Below are positions 20,653 to 50,879 of a stretch of 51,508 nucleotides of DNA, piece by piece (positions within the stretch are counted from its first letter, which is position 1; each line of letters opens with the position of its first letter). The notes under the pieces are model-generated. The model saw only the letters and a program-made list of their open reading frames with translations. It did not search any database and was not told the origin of the DNA. A program made the position numbers and the translations under genes. The DNA is from Clostridiales bacterium (lineage in GTDB: Bacteria; Bacillota; Clostridia; Christensenellales; Borkfalkiaceae): contig SVHP01000002.1 in assembly GCA_015055735.1 (NCBI GenBank), positions 1 through 51,508 of the forward strand, read 5' to 3'.

Positions 20653-20681
20653 ATTATATATTAAATACAGTTAATTGTCAA
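20653..20681 (-). promoter_or_regulatory. Promoter of the flippase-like gene
   Basis: On the minus strand TTGACA, 17 bp, TATAAT: a full consensus match. The leader is about 45 nt. Confidence 0.8.
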
Positions 20682-23525: not shown

Positions 23526-23554
23526 TTGACAAAAATCGTTATATACATTATAAT
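23526..23554 (+). promoter_or_regulatory. Consensus promoter of greA-lysS
   Basis: TTGACA, 17 bp, TATAAT: a perfect match. The leader to greA is about 115 nt. Confidence 0.85.
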
Positions 23555-41661: not shown

Positions 41662-41790
41662 CTATTTTTTATTAAAAAGCTCAAATATACTTTTTGTAAC
41701 CCAACCTATTACACTAAATATTAATACGCCTGCAAAAAATATTCCTCTCAATATCTTTTCAATGTCTTTTTGACTTATTGCGGGTTTCAT
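41662..41790 (-). CDS. 42-residue single-pass membrane protein, last gene of the GHKL operon
   Basis: A 42-residue peptide with a polar N-terminus (MKPAISQKDIEKILR), one hydrophobic helix of about 15-20 residues (GIFFAGVLIFSVIGWV) and a short basic tail (ELFNKK). The ATG lies one base after the stop of the DUF6339-like gene, so translation is likely coupled, which is good evidence that it is real. I know no family for it. In the setting of a defence-like operon it could be a membrane effector or an anchor, which is inference only. Confidence 0.6.
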   Translation of the reverse strand: MKPAISQKDIEKILRGIFFAGVLIFSVIGWVTKSIFELFNKK

Positions 41791-41791
41791 T

Positions 41792-42574
41792 TTAATCACT
41801 CAATGAAAAACGACTGGTCGTTTTATTATTTAAGTTTGTTTCTAAACGTATAAGTTCATCATAAAATTTCTCGTAAAGTTCTTCACGACTAAAAACGTCT
41901 ACAAGATAAGCACCACCTAAAAATGATACATATTTTACTATACCATTATAAATTTCTTTCTTTTCGATACTTCCGCCATCTCTTTCATAGTCACGTAGTG
42001 CTTGTATTAAAGCAAGTCTAACGTTTTTAGAACCAGAATAAGTTCTTGAATAAATACTAATTAAAAAGTCTTTATGTTTGAAACAAAACTCTGTTAATTC
42101 ATAAGGGTTTTCAAGTGAGTCGTCGTATGTTAAATATACATACCACCAAAGCATTGAAATGCCTTGTCTAAACAAATCGGCTTTTCTACTTTGACCTTGG
42201 AACAGCCATTTATTCTTAAAATACTTATTATTTGTTGACAAATTGTATCTATATTGCATATAAGAATAAAATTTATCAAAGGTTAAACCCGCCCATAGTC
42301 TTGTATCACAAGCAGTGCTTTCCGAAAGATGCTTTAAGGCTTCAAAAAGTCTTTTAGCATTTTCAAAGTCCGTATCTTCAGGTCTTTCAGCAGACATATC
42401 CATTTCAAAATCTTCCATATCAACTTTTGAAAGAGTAAATGGTTCATCTACCTTGAAAACATCTTTTAACCACTCATTTGTAGGGTTGTCTTTAATATAT
42501 TTTTCAATAACTTCTAAATTTTCTTTAGTTGATAAAGTTTCTAATTTTTCTTCAGAAAGTATCTTAATCTTCAT
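41792..42574 (-). CDS. DUF6339-like protein of the GHKL operon
   Basis: A 260-residue soluble, mostly helical protein. From memory it resembles proteins labelled DUF6339. The conserved-looking centre is STACDTRLWAGLTFDKFY followed by KNKWLFQGQSRKADLFRQG and ISMLWWYVYLTYD. No catalytic motif is evident. The start is ATG 42574 with GGAGGAAGTTCAA before it. It overlaps the upstream 294-residue gene by 11 bp, so the two are coupled. Confidence 0.7.
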   Translation of the reverse strand: MKIKILSEEKLETLSTKENLEVIEKYIKDNPTNEWLKDVFKVDEPFTLSKVDMEDFEMDMSAERPEDTDFENAKRLFEALKHLSESTACDTRLWAGLTFDKFYSYMQYRYNLSTNNKYFKNKWLFQGQSRKADLFRQGISMLWWYVYLTYDDSLENPYELTEFCFKHKDFLISIYSRTYSGSKNVRLALIQALRDYERDGGSIEKKEIYNGIVKYVSFLGGAYLVDVFSREELYEKFYDELIRLETNLNNKTTSRFSLSD

Positions 42575-43448
42575 TTGAACTTCCTCCTTCAATAGCAACT
42601 TTATTCAAGTTAATAATGCCGTTTGCCGTGGTGTTTTTCATTATCTTTTGTGCAACGTCAAATGTATCAATATTGCTGATATTTTCTTCGCTAATATCAA
42701 TGTTCAACTTTTTAGCAGCCTTTTGAATTGACCTAAACCATCTTCTTTCTTCGTATAGATAATAATCGTCACCAGAGTGCTTAACTTCTTCCAAACACTT
42801 AATAAGAGCGGGAATAATAAGCATAGCATGTAAAACAGGTTGTGCATTAGGGTTGTTGCTATTTTGTGTTACAAACTTTCTGTAAACAGGTGACGGAAGC
42901 CTTAAACCAATTTTGTCACTTGAATAGTCAATAACAATATCCGTAACCTTTGGGTCAATAATTTCAGTAACAGAGAAGATAGAAGGAACGTTTGCAAGGT
43001 CATCATCTTCTTTTTCAATTCTAATAACCTTTTCAAAACCAATAGCCATAATGCTACCTTTGTCTAATTCAAACGAAACACCTTCATATTCAGCGTTAAA
43101 TTTACTATTTTTATAGTCGTAGATATCTCTATCAGCAACTATAAAAGGACAAAGGTGCATAACTTCTTCAACTTTGTTTGCAGAAATCGTAATTGTTTTC
43201 CCTTCAAACGGAATTTCTACGAGTTTTCTAAAACAAGTAAAGGCACATTCAATATGTACAACAAAAGATGCATCATTAGAGCGAATTACGTTTGCCAATT
43301 CTTCATTATCAAGTTTTGGTGTAAACTTTAATGTAATTTCTTTTTCGGTAATAATTTCTTCAACTTCAATATCAAATGAACTATCTAAATAGTCATTATT
43401 AAATGATGCTAATACGGGATAGGGATATAATTTAGCCTTTATATGCAT
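42564..43448 (-). CDS. Unknown 294-residue protein of the GHKL operon
   Basis: I do not recognise this protein. The first ~150 residues look beta-rich and the second half helical, with a block LRLPSPVYRKFVTQ and YLYEERRWFRSIQKAAKKL near residues 185-255. No membrane segment, no cysteine motif. The start ATG 43448 follows TGGAGGTAAAGATAT and overlaps the GHKL gene by 17 bp. A structural or adaptor subunit is the simplest guess. Confidence 0.7.
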   Translation of the reverse strand: MHIKAKLYPYPVLASFNNDYLDSSFDIEVEEIITEKEITLKFTPKLDNEELANVIRSNDASFVVHIECAFTCFRKLVEIPFEGKTITISANKVEEVMHLCPFIVADRDIYDYKNSKFNAEYEGVSFELDKGSIMAIGFEKVIRIEKEDDDLANVPSIFSVTEIIDPKVTDIVIDYSSDKIGLRLPSPVYRKFVTQNSNNPNAQPVLHAMLIIPALIKCLEEVKHSGDDYYLYEERRWFRSIQKAAKKLNIDISEENISNIDTFDVAQKIMKNTTANGIINLNKVAIEGGSSNED

Positions 43449-45345
43449 ATATCTTTACCTCCATAGAGCAGTAGTCTTGTCCTTCAATTTGAACGTCTAT
43501 TGATTTTGTTAAACCTTCTTCAAGTTCAACGTAGCCAACTTTGTTTTTGATAATAGTAGGATTATCAATACCTTTTACAGATAAAATCTTTACAGCCTCT
43601 TTTTCAGATAATTCAGCAACTTTATTTATTGCTAAATATGCCTTTTTACTACTTTCGTTTGGTGTAAAAATCAAACGATAGAATTGATTTTTCTTGTCAA
43701 TACAGAAAATTCTAAAGTGTTTTGCTTTGACAAGAACAACTTTCTTGCCAGTATTTCCATCACCTTCTTCAAAAGAAACTTCTTCTGGGTCACGTTCTCC
43801 ATCACCGTGAGATTTGCCACCGTGATGCATAAAGCCTTCTTCATCAGTCCCTTCGATAATATTACCTTCAGAATCAACTTTTTCTCTTAAATCTTCACCA
43901 ATTTCAAAAGTAGAAAGATTTGCAACACTGTCAACTTTGGTTTTAACTTTCTTTTCAATATTGACAATTCTATTGATAACTTCCGTTTTCTTGGTAGGTT
44001 GCTTTTCTTCGCCAGCGCTTATATCGTCAGGCAAGAACTCGCCAGCACCTTCAATGTCAACAGTAGAACTAAATGTTTTTTCTGCAAACTCATTTAACTT
44101 ATCTTTGATAAGGTCATACATTGTATTGAGTAACTTCTGAGAAGTAGCAGGATCAAAACGTTTCGGCTCCCATTTGTTATGAGAAGGGTTTTCTAACTTT
44201 ATAAGTCGTTCATTAAGAACTTTACCTTCTACGACAGCAATGCCAACAAATCTCATTGTAGGGCATAATTTATCTTTATCAAGTATTTTCATGCCCGTAC
44301 TTCTAATCATAGAAATTTTGTTATTGCCATCGTGTCTTAAAGAAATCGCTAATTTAAGAGAACCAATTTTAACATTAGCAATGCTAATATCAATAGTTTC
44401 CCATTGTACGTCTTTTGAAAGCAATTCAAAATTCATTATAGTAGAAGAACTTAATTTGTCCTTAAACTTTTCAATAATGGTAGGCAGTGTAGATTTATTG
44501 ATAACAAATGAATTTACTCTTACTTCAAGTTTTTCGTTCCAAATAGCCATAATAAAGCCATCAAGCACTTCATTTATTATGGTTGCTTGTAATTCGTTTG
44601 TATCTTGGTATATATTTTCTCTTAAACCTGCAATATAAATATCAGTTCCCGACGTTTCTCTTTTAAAAGACTCGTCTAAAACAAGCATTTCATTATTTGG
44701 TAATATTTTGTGAGGTTCTTGAATACCAAAATAACCAACACCTTGAGCAATGTCGTCAGAGCCATCTTCAAATTTGCCTAATTTAAAAGAAGTCAAACGA
44801 GATACACCTTGACTTGCCTTTTTGCCTTCACAATCTAATGTGCTATAAAATACTGTTCTTAAAGCAGAGCATGCAAAAGGAGCGCCTTTACCAATACCAA
44901 AGCTACCGCCTTTTTCTCCGTTTTTATCAGAAGAACCTGTTGACCTAACAAGGTTGCTCCAGTCAGTTCCACGTTCTTTGTCAGAACCACGTAAACCTTT
45001 TGTGTTAAAGTCGCTTATTCTTAAAAAGTGTATTTTATCAGACGCTAAAACCTTTTTAGCATCTTCAAAAAACTTGACAGTCTTTTCGTTTCTTGCAAAC
45101 TCTTGACATTTAGCCATAATATTGCTTAATTCATCACAGCCCGGAAAAGCATCACGAATTAAACTAAAAGACTTAAATTCAACTATAGCTTGCTTGCCTG
45201 TTAGAGCAGCGTCTAAAGAGTTTTGAACAATTTCTCTTGCTAAAGATTTAATAGGCGAATCGTTAAAGGTTTCAATCAAAGAGTTGTTCAAACCTTGTTC
45301 GTCGCCACCACTATTAGAAGGGAAACACCATTTACTTATAGCCAT
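43432..45345 (-). CDS. GHKL (MORC/Hsp90-like) ATPase
   Basis: A 637-residue protein with an N-terminal GHKL ATP-binding domain. The N box is REIVQNSLDA (Glu38, Asn42), the G1 box ISDFNTKGL (Asp112) and the G2 box GGSFGIGKGAPF (146-157). A long middle region follows, then a Lys/Glu-rich linker and a C-terminal domain after about 530. It is not a histidine kinase: no dimerisation/H box is seen. MORC-like GHKL ATPases of bacteria often sit in anti-phage loci. The start follows AGGAGGGTGTAATT, which overlaps the stop codon region of the 73-residue gene. Confidence 0.82.
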   Translation of the reverse strand: MAISKWCFPSNSGGDEQGLNNSLIETFNDSPIKSLAREIVQNSLDAALTGKQAIVEFKSFSLIRDAFPGCDELSNIMAKCQEFARNEKTVKFFEDAKKVLASDKIHFLRISDFNTKGLRGSDKERGTDWSNLVRSTGSSDKNGEKGGSFGIGKGAPFACSALRTVFYSTLDCEGKKASQGVSRLTSFKLGKFEDGSDDIAQGVGYFGIQEPHKILPNNEMLVLDESFKRETSGTDIYIAGLRENIYQDTNELQATIINEVLDGFIMAIWNEKLEVRVNSFVINKSTLPTIIEKFKDKLSSSTIMNFELLSKDVQWETIDISIANVKIGSLKLAISLRHDGNNKISMIRSTGMKILDKDKLCPTMRFVGIAVVEGKVLNERLIKLENPSHNKWEPKRFDPATSQKLLNTMYDLIKDKLNEFAEKTFSSTVDIEGAGEFLPDDISAGEEKQPTKKTEVINRIVNIEKKVKTKVDSVANLSTFEIGEDLREKVDSEGNIIEGTDEEGFMHHGGKSHGDGERDPEEVSFEEGDGNTGKKVVLVKAKHFRIFCIDKKNQFYRLIFTPNESSKKAYLAINKVAELSEKEAVKILSVKGIDNPTIIKNKVGYVELEEGLTKSIDVQIEGQDYCSMEVKIYAYKG

Positions 45346-45357
45346 AATTACACCCTC

Positions 45358-45579
45358 CTAAATCAACTTAAATTTATCAGGCCCACCGATATCGGTAAAT
45401 TGCTTTTTTGCAAGTGCCGTTTCAGTTTCAATAGCCTTAAAAATCTTTTCTACATCTTTTGCAGTATAATCATATACTGATTTGTTTGCTAAATTGCCTA
45501 TAAGTCTAATCATTTCAAGAACCTTATTAGTTCTATTTTCGGCAAGTCTAACAAATTTTTCCTTCTTAGTTTCTTGCAT
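45358..45579 (-). CDS. 73-residue protein, first gene of the GHKL operon
   Basis: A small, mostly helical, charged protein (KFVRLAENRTNKVLEMIRLI then VYDYTAKDVEKIFKAIETE). I recall similar small proteins next to plasmid and defence genes but cannot name a family. The start follows GAGGTAGTATTTT and a consensus promoter lies about 35 bp upstream. It ends 12 bp before the ATPase start. Confidence 0.7.
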   Translation of the reverse strand: MQETKKEKFVRLAENRTNKVLEMIRLIGNLANKSVYDYTAKDVEKIFKAIETETALAKKQFTDIGGPDKFKLI

Positions 45580-45613
45580 AAAATACTACCTCACAGTTAA
45601 TTTTATCAAGTAA

Positions 45614-45642
45614 ATTATAGCATCACAAAATAATATTGTCAA
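45614..45642 (-). promoter_or_regulatory. Consensus promoter of the GHKL operon
   Basis: On the minus strand TTGACA, 17 bp, TATAAT: a perfect match, in the 110-bp gap between the 914-residue gene and the 73-residue gene. So the five-gene cassette can be expressed independently of the upstream AbiE operon. Confidence 0.85.
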
Positions 45643-45690
45643 TATATATTACAAATATTTTGCATATATTTTCAAAATATTATTAAAATG

Positions 45691-48435
45691 TTAGAAAACC
45701 AAGTTTCTTTCTTTCATATAAATTGCCATCTGCGTATCGTCAAAACCACGCTTATTTTTAATAATGTTAAGCAATTCTTCTAAATCTTTTGGTTCTTCTT
45801 CTAATCTATAAATAATAGGAACAGAGTATCTAAACTGAGATGAACTCATCATAACCTTATATTTATTAGACCATTTATTGATAACGCTATAAACGAGCCA
45901 ATCGTTCCATTGAATATTGATTTTAGGCAAGAGAGAGTAATTAAGGTTATTTAATACAAGAACTTCGTTGCCTTTGATAATTTCATCAATATATTCTTCA
46001 ACGTATTCTGCTTTATATTTGTTTAAGCCCGTTGAATCAATACTTATAAGGGTATTTTTGTTTTTAAGTAAGTATATATCGTTAAATGCGTTTAGCTGAG
46101 TTAATATGTTCCACACAACAAACGAATTGTCTCTAACAAATTCCATAAATTCGTCAATATCAACTTCATTTTTGCCTTCCAAGTAATCACGCATACGTTC
46201 TTCTTGTTTACCAATTTCAATGCCTTTTAATGCAAAGAATGGACGAGATAGAGAGAAATCTTCCTTAAATAATGCTTCAACAATACTAAATAATGTATAT
46301 CTTGACTCAATTTCAAAGGCTTCTATTATTTCAGGATGCATTAAACTTAATATTGACATCAAATCTTCTGATTTATGTATTTCGCCATCTTCAACCATTT
46401 CTGAAATAACATTTCTTAACGTGTCAACGTATTCGCTTTGCTTTTCAATAAAATCCTTTGACATATAAACTGAAAAACCACAAATAATGTTTTCATCTTG
46501 CATTGCAAAAGATATAACAACGTCAGTAACACCCGGAAATTCTTCTCTAAGTTGAGCCTTAGTTACGGGACTATCGCTTTGACAAACAAATTTAGTTATT
46601 TCAGCATAAAGAGAAGTCGCCTCTTTGGATTTGCTAACATAATCTCTCTTGAAAAAATATTTATTAGGTAAAGATGCGTGTAAAACACCTTGCATATAAT
46701 ATTTATTGTTAATTCCTTCAGACCTTAATTTATCCTCAAATAAATTAAATATGGTATTTGTAATAAATATTTCTTTTTCACTTGAATCAATATAATCACA
46801 AATCTCTTTAAGCAATTCATCGGAAATAAGAGTCTTAGGCTTAATTTTATATTCTCCACGTCCACAAAGGATACCAATGCGCGTTAAAATTCCCGCTATA
46901 GAACGATCACTATACTCCTTATTGTCTCCAAAGGTTTTGCTATATAGCTTCTTAAATTTTGTCAAGAATTCATCATCGTATATATTGATAACTTCGGGAA
47001 AATATTCTTTCCAAATAAACTTATATTTTTCGGCTAAGTTCATTTTGTTTTTAGAGTAAATATCTCCAGACTTCTTATAAAGAGAAAGTATAATTTTTCT
47101 ACAATCCTCTATAGAAATTACAGTCTCGTTTGCAAGTAATATATTAACAAGCTCATCTGAATAATTATTAACATCCGCTTCGTCTAATTGTTCAGGCAAA
47201 TTTTCCGCATAACGAACAGCTTCGTCATACCATCGATAATCATCCACATAATAGAACTTGCCTAACTCTTCCGCGTATTCAAGATTATCATTGTTTGAAT
47301 TTAGCAAAAAGAACTTAAATAACAATGGATTAAATGAGAATATTTTTATTATATCTGCATCTTGAACAAATAAATCATCTTCAACCATTGCTCTCAAAAT
47401 ACTAATGGGATAATTTAATTTTTGATTAAATTTGTTAAACAACTCAAAATATTTGCTTTCTAATTGACGAACGCGTTCTCTAGTTAATTCTAAATGTTCT
47501 CCGGATGCTTCCAATGTTTTTCCTTTCGCTCTATTTTCCAATATAGAAACATAATTCTCCCATAATCGATGGGGCTTATTTTGTTTATTTGCTTGTTGAA
47601 CTAGCAGCTTAAATTCTTCATTTAGTTTTTCTTTTAAACTAAACTGTAATGTTTTTAGTTTATTTATGATATTTGTTTCATGATTTAGGAGTTCTTCTAA
47701 AACATTTGCTTCTAAATCATTTAATTCTTGAATTGTTTTGATATTATGCGCAGACAATATTTGCGATACACTTCCTGCGAATAAGTATTTTACCAACAAA
47801 CTTAAATTGTCTTTATGCACATATTCTAAACGAAAATTAATGTTGTTTTTAAGTTGTTGACATTTTGTTTTTCTTTGCGTAATTTCTATAAATGATTCTA
47901 TTTTATTTGTTATGGCTTCTTCGTCTTGCAAAATAGTAAGCAGCTTATTTTCCTCATATCCCTCAACAAACATATATAACAACGAAGAATTTTTTGTCTT
48001 TATATTGGTTTCTTCGTTTTTGTCCAAGAATTGATTCAACAAAACTAACCATCGTGAAAAACCATTAGAAAGCATATCTTTTAGAGAATCTAATCCTAAT
48101 ACGTTTATAAATTCTATTACTCGTATTCTATTTTGTATAAATACCTTATTTAAAATATCATAATTGACACTTTCTTCTTTATTTGTTTCAACTACATATT
48201 TTACATACAAATCCTTAACGGTATTAAAACTAACGTCTCCAGATGACCCCAATAATTCTATTAGATTTGCACGATTAAATGATTTTGCATTAAATTGTTC
48301 TCTTAAATATTCATAAATATCCGATATGTTAATAAATGATTTGTTCGTCGTATTATACAAATCATAAATTTTTTGAACAACGTTCTTAATAGGGAATCTT
48401 ATATATTTAGAGCAATAATAATATTTTTCTTCCAT
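45691..48435 (-). CDS. Large protein with sigma-region-4-like and RNAP alpha-CTD-like segments
   Basis: A 914-residue soluble protein of unknown function. Residues about 218-262 (LSAHNIKTIQELNDLEANVLEELL) resemble the helix-hairpin-helix of the RNA polymerase alpha C-terminal domain. Residues about 301-335 (GKTLEASGEHLELTRERVRQL) match sigma-70 region 4, the minus-35-binding helix-turn-helix. The ~580 residues after that show no motif I know; helicase, nuclease and kinase signatures are absent. The start follows AGAGGAAGAA, 28 bp after the HEPN-like gene, so it is in the AbiE operon. Confidence 0.7.
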   Translation of the reverse strand: MEEKYYYCSKYIRFPIKNVVQKIYDLYNTTNKSFINISDIYEYLREQFNAKSFNRANLIELLGSSGDVSFNTVKDLYVKYVVETNKEESVNYDILNKVFIQNRIRVIEFINVLGLDSLKDMLSNGFSRWLVLLNQFLDKNEETNIKTKNSSLLYMFVEGYEENKLLTILQDEEAITNKIESFIEITQRKTKCQQLKNNINFRLEYVHKDNLSLLVKYLFAGSVSQILSAHNIKTIQELNDLEANVLEELLNHETNIINKLKTLQFSLKEKLNEEFKLLVQQANKQNKPHRLWENYVSILENRAKGKTLEASGEHLELTRERVRQLESKYFELFNKFNQKLNYPISILRAMVEDDLFVQDADIIKIFSFNPLLFKFFLLNSNNDNLEYAEELGKFYYVDDYRWYDEAVRYAENLPEQLDEADVNNYSDELVNILLANETVISIEDCRKIILSLYKKSGDIYSKNKMNLAEKYKFIWKEYFPEVINIYDDEFLTKFKKLYSKTFGDNKEYSDRSIAGILTRIGILCGRGEYKIKPKTLISDELLKEICDYIDSSEKEIFITNTIFNLFEDKLRSEGINNKYYMQGVLHASLPNKYFFKRDYVSKSKEATSLYAEITKFVCQSDSPVTKAQLREEFPGVTDVVISFAMQDENIICGFSVYMSKDFIEKQSEYVDTLRNVISEMVEDGEIHKSEDLMSILSLMHPEIIEAFEIESRYTLFSIVEALFKEDFSLSRPFFALKGIEIGKQEERMRDYLEGKNEVDIDEFMEFVRDNSFVVWNILTQLNAFNDIYLLKNKNTLISIDSTGLNKYKAEYVEEYIDEIIKGNEVLVLNNLNYSLLPKINIQWNDWLVYSVINKWSNKYKVMMSSSQFRYSVPIIYRLEEEPKDLEELLNIIKNKRGFDDTQMAIYMKERNLVF

Positions 48436-48463: not shown

Positions 48464-49204
48464 TTAATTTTTTTTTTGATTTAAATAGTCTAAGCCATCC
48501 ACCCAAAGCATTATTTTAAGAAAGTCGTATTTCGAATATTCTTTTCTTGTTCTCCCATGCAAAAGCCAATGTCTATTTAAACCGTTAGGTTCATCTTGCG
48601 AAAAATCAAAAAATTTAAATGGTGTATTGTCAATCTTCTCAATAGCAGTATAAATACACAATGTTTTTCTATCTATTTCATTTAGTTCGACCTTATCTTT
48701 TAATTTCTTTTCTACAACATTTATCCTTTTATTAAAACTTGTCGTGTTATTGTTTGAAACATCCGAAAGCAGACCATCCAATATTGAGAAAAGTCCAAGA
48801 CAAGCAAGTTGATAATGTTCTTTGTTATACGAATCCAATATTTGTGTAAACAATATTTTATATTCTTTAATTAGATTAGAAGCTTGACAGCGATCTATTA
48901 ACATTATTAAGTTTCCATTATCATTTTCAAAGTAATAATTTTGTATAAATTTATCTATATCGGCAGAATATTCAATTTCTTTTGCCATCTCTAATGTTAA
49001 ATCATCTGTAAAAACAATCTGTTTTTTAGCCAATTTTTCCGTCGCTGAGCACCAAACTGCAAAATTTTCAAAAGTTTTTATATATTCTACAATATTATCA
49101 GCGTTTTTTTCATACCACTTATGTGCAATAGCTAACACATCTACAAACTTTAAAATAAATGTTTTTGCTCCCTCTAAAAATTTTTTATAACTAGATTCGT
49201 CCAC
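48464..49204 (-). CDS. HEPN-like protein (R-X4-H motif)
   Basis: A 246-residue helical protein. Near the C-terminus LNRHWLLHGRTR (Arg211-His216) fits the R-X4-6-H signature of HEPN ribonuclease domains. The preceding helix pair around 130-150 (YQLACLGLFSILDGLLSD) is the usual partner of such Apea-type domains. The start is GTG 49204 with AAAAGGAGAG upstream; the gene begins 17 bp after the AbiEii stop. It may be an RNase effector or RNA-binding partner of the 914-residue protein, which is inference. Confidence 0.6.
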   Translation of the reverse strand: MDESSYKKFLEGAKTFILKFVDVLAIAHKWYEKNADNIVEYIKTFENFAVWCSATEKLAKKQIVFTDDLTLEMAKEIEYSADIDKFIQNYYFENDNGNLIMLIDRCQASNLIKEYKILFTQILDSYNKEHYQLACLGLFSILDGLLSDVSNNNTTSFNKRINVVEKKLKDKVELNEIDRKTLCIYTAIEKIDNTPFKFFDFSQDEPNGLNRHWLLHGRTRKEYSKYDFLKIMLWVDGLDYLNQKKN

Positions 49205-49221: not shown

Positions 49222-50226
49222 TTACACCTTTGCGTTATTTATTTCTTTTTCTAACTCTTTGATTACTTCCAAAATGGCATCAAAATCCGGTTTTTCACCA
49301 TAAAGCATATTTTGCATTTTTCCATAATCTTCTTTAAATGCTTTTACGTTATATTCGGGAGGAAGAAGCTTTATAGTTCCTTTCTTTGCTTCTTCGTATT
49401 TAGCCCAAGAACAATGATAAAACTTGTCCTTAAATTCAACAACCTTGCTTAAAAGTTCAAAAGCTTTTAAGGCAGAATCCTTAACACTGGAATTTGCCAT
49501 ACAATAAACGTCATAATAATGTCTAGAATAACGTTGTGGCACTTTACTACCTTCAGATCTATTTGCTTCTCTATGTAAAATTGTTATCTTTTCCCAAAAC
49601 GTTCTTTCAGGAAGAACAGTTAAAACGCTTGTACTTGGCTCTTTGAAAAGTCTTGGATATTCTTCTGCAACAAATGGAGTGATTTCTTTCTCCGCTGCAG
49701 GCGTCCACGCTGCAAGCGCACCAATTTCTAATCTTATAACCGACAAAATAGAAGAATCTTCAAACCCTTGTGGATACGCAAAAACGACAGTTTGTGGGTC
49801 ATCTTTATCAATATAACAGTCAATCTTTGCAGATATTTCGTTTTGCATATCTTTTTTAAGTTCTGGCAAAAATACTTCTCTTAAAAACTCTTCCGTTTTA
49901 GCATTCGCTTCATTATTAAAAGCAGTTTGTTTACTAACTGAACGAGCTTTCCATGGTTCGTCTTTTGTATATCCTATAACTCTCCAATCCAAAATCAAGT
50001 CGATATCTTCTGAAAATCTTTTTATTAAGTTATAAGATTTAGAAAGGCTCGTGCCGCCCTTAAATGCGATATTGTTTTTCCATTTTGAACGATGAAATAG
50101 ATAATCAAGCATAAAGCAAACCCAATAATCTTTTTCAATTATCGCTTCGGTTAAGCCCTTTTTAGTCGCTGTGTTTATAAACAAATCTCTTCTATCGCTT
50201 TCATTTATTTTTGCTATTGCTCTCAT
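49222..50226 (-). CDS. abiEii: AbiEii/AbiGii nucleotidyltransferase toxin
   Basis: A 334-residue type IV toxin of the DUF1814/AbiEii nucleotidyltransferase family. The nucleotidyltransferase motifs GGTSLSK (57-63) and RFSEDIDL (about 70-77) and the later ERTFWEKITILH are intact, so it is probably active. Relatives add nucleotides to tRNA acceptor ends or otherwise block growth. The start ATG 50226 is preceded by TGGAGGTAAAT, which overlaps the end of the antitoxin gene. The longer frame to 50241 is not needed. Confidence 0.9.
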   Translation of the reverse strand: MRAIAKINESDRRDLFINTATKKGLTEAIIEKDYWVCFMLDYLFHRSKWKNNIAFKGGTSLSKSYNLIKRFSEDIDLILDWRVIGYTKDEPWKARSVSKQTAFNNEANAKTEEFLREVFLPELKKDMQNEISAKIDCYIDKDDPQTVVFAYPQGFEDSSILSVIRLEIGALAAWTPAAEKEITPFVAEEYPRLFKEPSTSVLTVLPERTFWEKITILHREANRSEGSKVPQRYSRHYYDVYCMANSSVKDSALKAFELLSKVVEFKDKFYHCSWAKYEEAKKGTIKLLPPEYNVKAFKEDYGKMQNMLYGEKPDFDAILEVIKELEKEINNAKV

Positions 50227-50228
50227 AT

Positions 50229-50837
50229 TTACCTCCAGCAAATTTCTCTTATGATTTCATATATCCACGAAGGAACAAATTTGGCTTCTATAAGCATCCT
50301 TTGTTTTTCATCATAATTTAATTTAAAACTTATTTTATCTATGTCTAGTTGAGTTATATTATCTATCCCTAACGCCCTTATTGCCTGAATAACCAATGCC
50401 GTTTTATAACTTACAACGGTTATTTGTCTATTCATTGTCTTTTTAAAAATAATTTGGACCTTTTTATATCCGTATTCACGATATAAACCGTCACTCACAT
50501 AACTCCAAACAGAAGGAACTTGAGTGGATAACCCAAGCAAGTTTAATGCTGTTTCTCCACACGGAACAATCGTCCAACCATAGTTCCTCGCAATTGCGTG
50601 AGCAACGGCATCAGGATGCGGAGCAACAAATTCACCTAAAAATGAATTATACTTAGGTTTATAATATACTCCGCGCATTACTCTAGCAATTTGTTTATAA
50701 GCAACCAATCTATTTAAAGTTTGCCTAATTGTTGCTTGATTAGCAATATCTAAAAAATCAGCAATAATAAAAACACTGCCTTCTGGATAGTTGTATATTC
50801 TATTACATATTTGCTGAAAAAAGCTTAATCGTTCCAT
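50229..50837 (-). CDS. abiEi: AbiEi-type antitoxin (DUF6088-like)
   Basis: A 202-residue antitoxin with an N-terminal winged helix (GSVFIIADFLDIANQATIRQTL then ARVMRGVYYKPKY) and an AbiEi-like C-terminal domain (HAIARNYGWTIVPCGETALNLLGLS). AbiEi proteins bind inverted repeats in their own promoter, and a fitting repeat overlaps the minus-10 here. The start is ATG 50837 with AAGGAGAAGATT before it; the in-frame extension to 50879 overlaps the promoter. Confidence 0.88.
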   Translation of the reverse strand: MERLSFFQQICNRIYNYPEGSVFIIADFLDIANQATIRQTLNRLVAYKQIARVMRGVYYKPKYNSFLGEFVAPHPDAVAHAIARNYGWTIVPCGETALNLLGLSTQVPSVWSYVSDGLYREYGYKKVQIIFKKTMNRQITVVSYKTALVIQAIRALGIDNITQLDIDKISFKLNYDEKQRMLIEAKFVPSWIYEIIREICWR

Positions 50838-50847
50838 AATCTTCTCC

Positions 50848-50879
50848 TTGTCACAAATATTATATAGTATTCGTGACAA
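50848..50879. promoter_or_regulatory. Inverted-repeat operator over the abiE promoter
   Basis: TTGTCACAAATA (50848-50859) and TATTCGTGACAA (50868-50879) form a 12-bp inverted repeat with one mismatch, flanking the minus-10 of the abiE promoter. It is the expected binding site for AbiEi autoregulation. Confidence 0.65.

Follow-up and report, generated by a model that had tools for sequence, protein, structure and literature searches.

A GHKL-S5 ATPase locus of a Clostridiales bacterium: a member of the defence candidate PDC-M33 with a frequent fourth gene and relatives next to restriction-modification genes

The window studied here, a 51,508-nucleotide stretch of DNA from a Clostridiales bacterium (assembly GCA_015055735.1, contig SVHP01000002.1), carries a row of minus-strand genes around a GHKL ATPase, and the question it raises is whether these genes form an undescribed defence system. 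An initial annotation had proposed so: five genes behind their own perfect promoter, acting as one functional unit. All five open reading frames were found on the minus strand and in the order given there, and their spacing is tight, with a 12-bp gap between the gene of a 73-aa protein (s73) and the ATPase gene, a 17-bp overlap between the ATPase gene and that of a 294-aa protein, and an 11-bp overlap between the latter and the DUF6339 gene if the ATG at 42574 is taken as the start. The unit is drawn differently by our analysis, as three fixed genes, encoding the ATPase (A), the 294-aa protein (B) and the DUF6339 protein (C), a frequent fourth gene (s73) and a 914-aa partner that had been overlooked; membership of the 42-aa peptide is unsupported. 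By its defining genes the locus is a member of PDC-M33, a candidate of PADLOC-DB 2.0.0. With moderate confidence, we read A, B and C, usually together with s73, as a putative ATP-driven DNA clamp or looping module of a restriction-modification-type defence.

The A, B and C genes

The PADLOC models PDC-M33A, PDC-M33B and PDC-M33C matched the ATPase (E 9.6e-184), the 294-aa protein (E 2.7e-88) and the DUF6339 protein (E 1.1e-65), respectively; they cover most of each protein, and the gene order is the same. The earlier description of C as DUF6339-like was also borne out by Pfam PF19866 (E 9.7e-47). The word "undescribed" has to be dropped, given these three matches and an ATPase that fits the paraMORC2 family of 2008 as the accessible text defines it (PMC2292703). 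The profile search that had been proposed as a check did lead to a named system, which is a candidate: we found no experiment on PDC-M33, and the literature search returned no paper naming PDC-M33 or DUF6339.

Co-occurrence analysis showed that in 398 genomes of the phylum B and C were each present in eight, the same eight, and A, B and C were adjacent in each of them; A was found in nine, the ninth (G342) with weak fragments only. None of the three genes had a match in 14 control genomes. Among 70 complete loci, the order and strand of A-B-C were kept in all 70. Fifty-two of these loci were retrieved with s73 itself as the probe, so the other 18 are the fairer sample, and near-identical loci (e.g. 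L070/L072/L073 and L083/L085) stay in the count. Another 18 rows were excluded as duplicates, cut contigs or incomplete sets (L019, L028, L035, L037-L039, L065, L074, L086, L090, L091, L094-L096, L101, L113, L125, L129). Scattering of the homologues without their neighbours, which had been named as what would speak against a unit, is the opposite of what was seen for these three genes, and the sequence comparisons support A, B and C as one unit.

The ATPase was matched in 6 of the 201 genomes of the window's family; these include the genome of the window itself, and in two (G158 and G088) the match is only a fragment or weak. The copy in G158, which belongs to the same genus, consists of A, B and C fragments (L019) and is apparently decayed. 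The loci carry labels of Bacillota, Pseudomonadota, Actinomycetota, Deinococcota and Mycoplasmatota and include metagenome-assembled genomes named as Bacteroidota; some loci lie on plasmids and some on viral contigs. Because many phyla are represented and plasmid and viral-contig copies exist, the distribution reads as lateral spread.

The ATPase was then analysed by alignment of 64 of 69 listed sequences, omitting the five most divergent (L028, L090, L101, L113, L125), plasmid rows and duplicates. The claim of intact N, G1 and G2 boxes held, since the ATP motif residues were invariant in 64/64, window included: E38, Q41, N42 and D45; D112, T115 and G117; G147, G150, G152 and K153. The ExxxH mark (E385 and H389) was invariant in the same 64 and in a separate alignment of 19 sequences that includes plasmid rows. 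The predicted fold is GHKL-S5 of the Hsp90/MORC/MutL type over residues 12-431, a range that includes ExxxH, and its matches include MORC3, MORC4 and MORC2 (fold similarity only), which supports the MORC-like designation; the C-terminus is predicted as a beta-rich domain. No HATPase model of Pfam was listed for any of the 64 members, so the GHKL call rests on the motifs and the predicted fold. By the features tested (GHKL domain, ATP motifs, S5 ExxxH), the predicted ATPase fits paraMORC2.

Other searches returned little. No nuclease family stood among the 15 Pfam families listed for the 64 members at E 0.05, sequence searches of the PDB with two versions of the ATPase profile gave no credible relative, and a direct search of genome contigs with the ATPase alone gave 18 stretches that matched the pattern, none of which was confirmed. 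For B, C and s73, profile searches of the PDB were likewise without a credible relative (best for B, YibL at E 0.028). B had sub-threshold Pfam matches to NUMOD1 (E 0.021) and a NUMOD-like family (E 0.088), DNA-binding motifs of endonucleases; it gave no informative structural match, an absence that indicates nothing.

The small protein s73 and its promoter

The s73 gene was present in 63 of the 70 complete A-B-C loci and in 11 of the 18 fetched without the s73 probe, which makes it, as far as sequences tell, a frequent fourth gene of the module and not a fixed partner. An alignment of eleven s73 sequences, all from A loci, was run on 84,980 species genomes, and the best 80 of 95 confirmed loci were analysed. 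A was the next gene in 55 of them and lay within 3.5 kb in 3 more; because the seeds came from A loci, these 58 are expected, and the informative part is the 15 loci in which another GHKL-like ATPase stands next to s73, a count that rests on reading of the gene listing. The remaining 7 had other contexts, e.g. fusion to an AMP-binding enzyme. Fifteen plasmid records carried s73, five of which were also found with the ATPase (Deinococcus, Arthrobacter, Planococcus and two Priestia).

The 15 other ATPases were of a 767-aa type (13, of which 9 were aligned) and a 794-aa type (2). A C5 methyltransferase reading frame accompanied 11 of the 13 loci of the first type (one is a 31-aa edge piece) and both of the second, and a FokI-type nuclease was found at one 767-aa-type locus (L046). 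When profiles were compared, A and the 767-aa ATPases gave E 4e-4 at a probability of only 35%, and A and the 794/822-aa ATPases nothing significant, so these proteins are GHKL-like mainly by motif. The 767-aa set showed N, G1, G3 and S5 patterns in 9/9 and G2 in 8/9; the 794/822-aa set (four sequences, two from outside the 80 loci) showed N and G1 in 4/4, G2 in 2/4 and a loose G3 in 1/4. The patterns used for A were narrow and caught 48 to 62 of the 64 A sequences, for which alignment column counts are the better test. PDB sequence searches with the profiles of the two clusters gave no credible relative.

Several loci of these searches had layouts of their own. The order s73, 767-aa-type ATPase and an approximately 255-aa protein was seen in L045, L046, L047, L050, L053, L054 and L056 and again in L057, L059, L060, L063, L064 and L081; at L045, the one locus of the 13 that was scanned, neither the ATPase nor the 255-aa protein had a PADLOC model at E 0.001. 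These loci are a possible sister system. In Pseudomonas (L090, L101), s73 and a divergent A are followed by two genes of about 250 aa that the B and C profiles do not match; those of L090 match no PADLOC model either. In L118, L119 and L120, an s73-like N-terminus sits on a 615-aa protein with no GHKL gene recognised beside it; in L118, the locus of the three that was scanned, this protein is an AMP-binding enzyme.

The promoter in front of s73 matched 12/12 consensus positions and has TG before the -10. Three exact TTGACA-17-TATAAT patterns occurred in the window versus 0.03 expected from shuffles, which indicated that the pattern is not due to chance; the other two lie outside the module, at 20653-20681 and 23526-23554. 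The perfect promoter was thus confirmed, but it is not peculiar to this locus: 58 of 70 loci holding both s73 and the ATPase (a different set from the 70 complete A-B-C loci) scored at least 10 upstream of s73, the score being hexamer matches of 12 plus 1 for TG, and in 43 of these 70 the score was reached by at most 5% of shuffles. The control consisted of mononucleotide-shuffled sequences and not of further promoters from these genomes.

Sixty upstream regions anchored on TTGAC[AG] held 24.4 bits of column information versus 17.4 (sd 0.2) in shuffles, and their A-minus-T autocorrelation peaked at lag 10-11. Such phased A/T tracts upstream of the -35, which we take to be UP-element-like in the window, were also found at s73 loci with other ATPases. 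As the control held no other promoters from these genomes, the tracts may be common to strong promoters of A+T-rich bacteria.

Neighbouring genes and the proposed clamp

A C5 cytosine methyltransferase was found in 51 of the 70 complete loci (10 of the 18 that were not fetched with s73), often directly upstream of s73 and on the same strand. For the background, 14 genomes in which A was matched, about 32 Mb together, were searched with PF00145, whereas the loci had been searched with a home-made profile; the 24 matches correspond to about 0.8 of 70 loci expected. In the window's branch, the neighbours are an SNF2 helicase and an N6/N4 methyltransferase in L043 and a type III restriction subunit in L044. 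These neighbour genes link the module to DNA-methylating restriction systems.

Vsr is a further such neighbour, seen in 8 of the 68 downstream neighbours scanned (of 106 unlabelled) and in 11 of the 80 upstream neighbours scanned (of 96). It also bears on a repair or self-protection role, in which the ATPase would be a MutL-like partner for very-short-patch repair, or would limit self-damage by the neighbouring methyltransferase and restriction enzyme, and would not be a defence effector. We regard this as unlikely: Vsr is a minority of the neighbours, the window and 18 other complete loci show no C5 methyltransferase, and the patchy distribution, the plasmid copies and the listing as a defence candidate also speak against it.

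The clamp reading follows the 2008 proposal, in the accessible text, of a clamp role with exchangeable partners for MORCs and paraMORCs (PMC2292703), and VcSduA, a paraMORC3-Shedu protein treated below, is its precedent from experiment. MORC, MutL and Hsp90 serve as the analogy: with ATP the ATPase would dimerise and close, thereby holding DNA or a nuclease complex. B and C would be dedicated subunits of the same complex, and s73 may be a small adaptor or regulator common to other GHKL-like ATPases. Recognition and cutting enzymes would be supplied by exchangeable neighbours, usually the C5 methyltransferase, sometimes with Vsr or a restriction endonuclease, and elsewhere an SF2 helicase with an N6/N4-type methyltransferase. 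Ahead of the s73 promoter, this slot is occupied in the window's branch by a sigma-4/alpha-CTD-type protein. The sequences show gene content and order, the co-occurrence of A, B and C, the ATP motifs, the predicted ATPase fold and the neighbour associations. We infer that the proteins form a complex and act as a clamp, what B, C and s73 each contribute, that the module depends on methylation and that it serves in defence, and also the sensing or remodelling of invading nucleic acid that the initial annotation had suggested.

Several observations weigh against the clamp reading. No C5 methyltransferase reading frame was found in the window, no restriction enzyme was among the nine window proteins scanned (41.66 to 50.88 kb), and the nearest relative, L042, also shows no C5 methyltransferase (short contig). 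The window genome's only C5 methyltransferase matches are on another contig. None of the proteins A, B, C and s73 showed an identifiable nuclease domain. In the 398-genome set, s73 was present in five genomes and adjoined A in 3 of 8 A genomes, which lowered our confidence slightly, and s73 occurs in the absence of A in two genomes, where it adjoins another GHKL-like ATPase in one (L040) and stands at the edge of a contig in the other. No phage test of a PDC-M33-type system was found in the literature, and according to the accessible text of one study, the PADLOC candidates PDC-M63AB and PDC-S04 were inactive when tested (PMC12409345).

On that other contig of the window genome (G000, contig C43), L174 (36198-39982 of 40319) holds a 751-aa frame that is matched twice as a C5 methyltransferase, and two more genes lie near the contig end. 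It may be a partner for restriction-modification or a separate system.

Another point against the clamp, that 11 of the 70 complete loci have neither the C5 methyltransferase nor the 914-aa protein, agrees with a self-contained antiviral or abortive-infection system, in which A, B and C would sense infection and act directly, whether or not s73 and the 914-aa protein take part, the restriction genes being mere neighbours in the island. The shared 8 of 398 genomes and the strong promoter of its own before s73 also fit. However, the C5 methyltransferase is far above background and often sits directly upstream of s73 on the same strand, and B and C have no recognised effector domain, so we consider this role improbable.

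The 914-aa gene is, by its homologues, a recurrent partner of the set. Its family was found in 15 of the 70 complete loci, window included (in L111 as a truncated fragment): the three nearest relatives (L042-L044) have it upstream of s73, ten other loci directly after the DUF6339 gene, and L110 as two pieces between s73 and A. On the ATPase tree, the window and L042-L044 form a 100/100 clade, and the 914-aa label (14 of 64 rows) needed 4 changes versus 12.8 in shuffles, with 0/500 shuffles as low. Sigma70_r4 was matched in 9 and RNA_pol_A_CTD in 7 of eleven family members, which points to a sigma-4/alpha-CTD-type family; the 914-aa protein is likely a large DNA-binding component of the set.

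These domains, and the position of the gene, which in the window and in L042-L044 immediately precedes the s73 promoter, would suit a role in which the window's branch monitors transcription: the sigma-4/alpha-CTD-type protein would read promoter DNA or phage take-over of RNA polymerase and trigger the ATPase. But the promoter pattern is kept where the 914-aa protein is absent, and in the window's own protein the sigma-4 domain is matched weakly (E 0.017) and alpha-CTD is not among the matches listed, which leaves this role very improbable. A broader and speculative idea, to which we give a small chance, is that s73 with its phased-A-tract promoter is a portable subunit of several distant MORC-type GHKL ATPases of restriction-modification loci, which would form one mechanistic class, and that one branch swapped the methyltransferase for a large, RNA-polymerase-like DNA reader (sigma-4 plus alpha-CTD) that would steer the clamp by recognising promoters and not methylation.

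With A, B and C fixed, s73 usually present and a methyltransferase or sigma-like protein as recurrent partner, the module offers a concrete candidate complex for reconstitution, and s73 is a sequence handle for finding more GHKL-type systems.

Surroundings and known systems

The features are collected in Table 1 in the order of transcription, from the 914-aa gene through the promoter, s73, A, B and C to the 42-aa open reading frame. The 42-aa frame had no relative by phmmer among the loci searched, a weak test for so short a peptide, and in L042-L044 other genes come after the DUF6339 gene.

Table 1 Features of the ATPase locus in the window
Feature	Position	Strand	Remark
914-aa gene	45691-48435	minus	directly upstream of the s73 promoter, same strand as the module
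A/T tracts, ~10-11 bp phase	45643..45690	minus	upstream of the -35; 60 anchored upstream regions
Sigma-70-type promoter, TTGACA-17-TATAAT with extended -10 TG	45614..45642	minus	precedes the 73-aa gene
s73, small 73-aa protein	45358..45579	minus	frequent fourth component; without PADLOC match
A, predicted GHKL-S5 ATPase, 637 aa	43432..45345	minus	fits paraMORC2 type; PDC-M33A
B, 294-aa protein	42564..43448	minus	PDC-M33B; beta-rich N-terminal half, helical C-terminal half
C, DUF6339 protein	41792..42574	minus	PDC-M33C; ATG start, open frame extends to 42598
42-aa hydrophobic peptide reading frame	41662..41790	minus	after the DUF6339 gene; membership in the unit unsupported

Of the 15 other genomes of the genus with a match, 6 were read for the neighbours of pfkB, and since all six carry a different gene after pfkB, the stretch between about 41.4 kb and the end of the contig (51508) reads as an insertion in the window genome. 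No tRNA gene, as a mark of an integration site, was found in the window. Next to the module lies a type IV toxin-antitoxin pair (49222-50879) of AbiEii (E 3.5e-110) and AbiEi (E 3.2e-63; DUF6088 in Pfam). The surroundings are a probable defence island, and a defence context for the unit is supported. Between the 914-aa gene and AbiE, a 246-aa protein (48464-49204) has a weak match to phrog_30981 (E 4.5e-6); its RHWLLHG stretch may resemble HEPN-type RNases.

Known systems were compared by PADLOC. No model of BREX, DISARM, Druantia, Zorya or AVAST was listed for the nine window proteins, in agreement with the initial annotation. MZA was rejected, as the 914-aa protein fails the MzaA sigma factor model (15.3 bits over residues 305-331 versus a cut-off of 800). 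Shedu with GHKL (paraMORC3) was rejected too, as no DUF4263/PD-(D/E)xK nuclease was among the Pfam families listed for the 64 ATPases at E 0.05 and PADLOC gave the window ATPase only PDC-M33A. The tested relative of that kind, VcSduA, depends on its ATPase residues as well as its nuclease residues to defend against phage, according to the accessible text (PMC12137116); it shares with A a GHKL ATPase of the paraMORC radiation, but has its own C-terminal DUF4263 nuclease, whereas A has a predicted beta-rich C-terminus and matched no nuclease family.

The likeness to PDC-M33 is that A, B and C occur together in the same order; the difference is that s73 and the 914-aa gene are matched by no PADLOC model (no match up to E 1, nor for the 42-aa peptide). 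The PDC systems are unpublished candidates according to the accessible part of a 2025 paper (PMC11811056). The paraMORC2 family was described by Iyer, Abhiman and Aravind in 2008, and gene context tied prokaryotic relatives of eukaryotic MORC ATPases to restriction-modification. With it the module shares GHKL and S5, ExxxH and prevalence in Gram-positives; the family's restriction-modification neighbours with cytosine methylases and Vsr have counterparts at many related loci, with no C5 methyltransferase found in the window; B, DUF6339, s73 and the sigma-like partner are unnamed in the accessible 2008 text (PMC2292703). The present analysis adds s73 as a frequent fourth gene that also accompanies other GHKL-like ATPases, a partner of sigma-4/alpha-CTD type, the conservation of the promoter and a corrected gene list.
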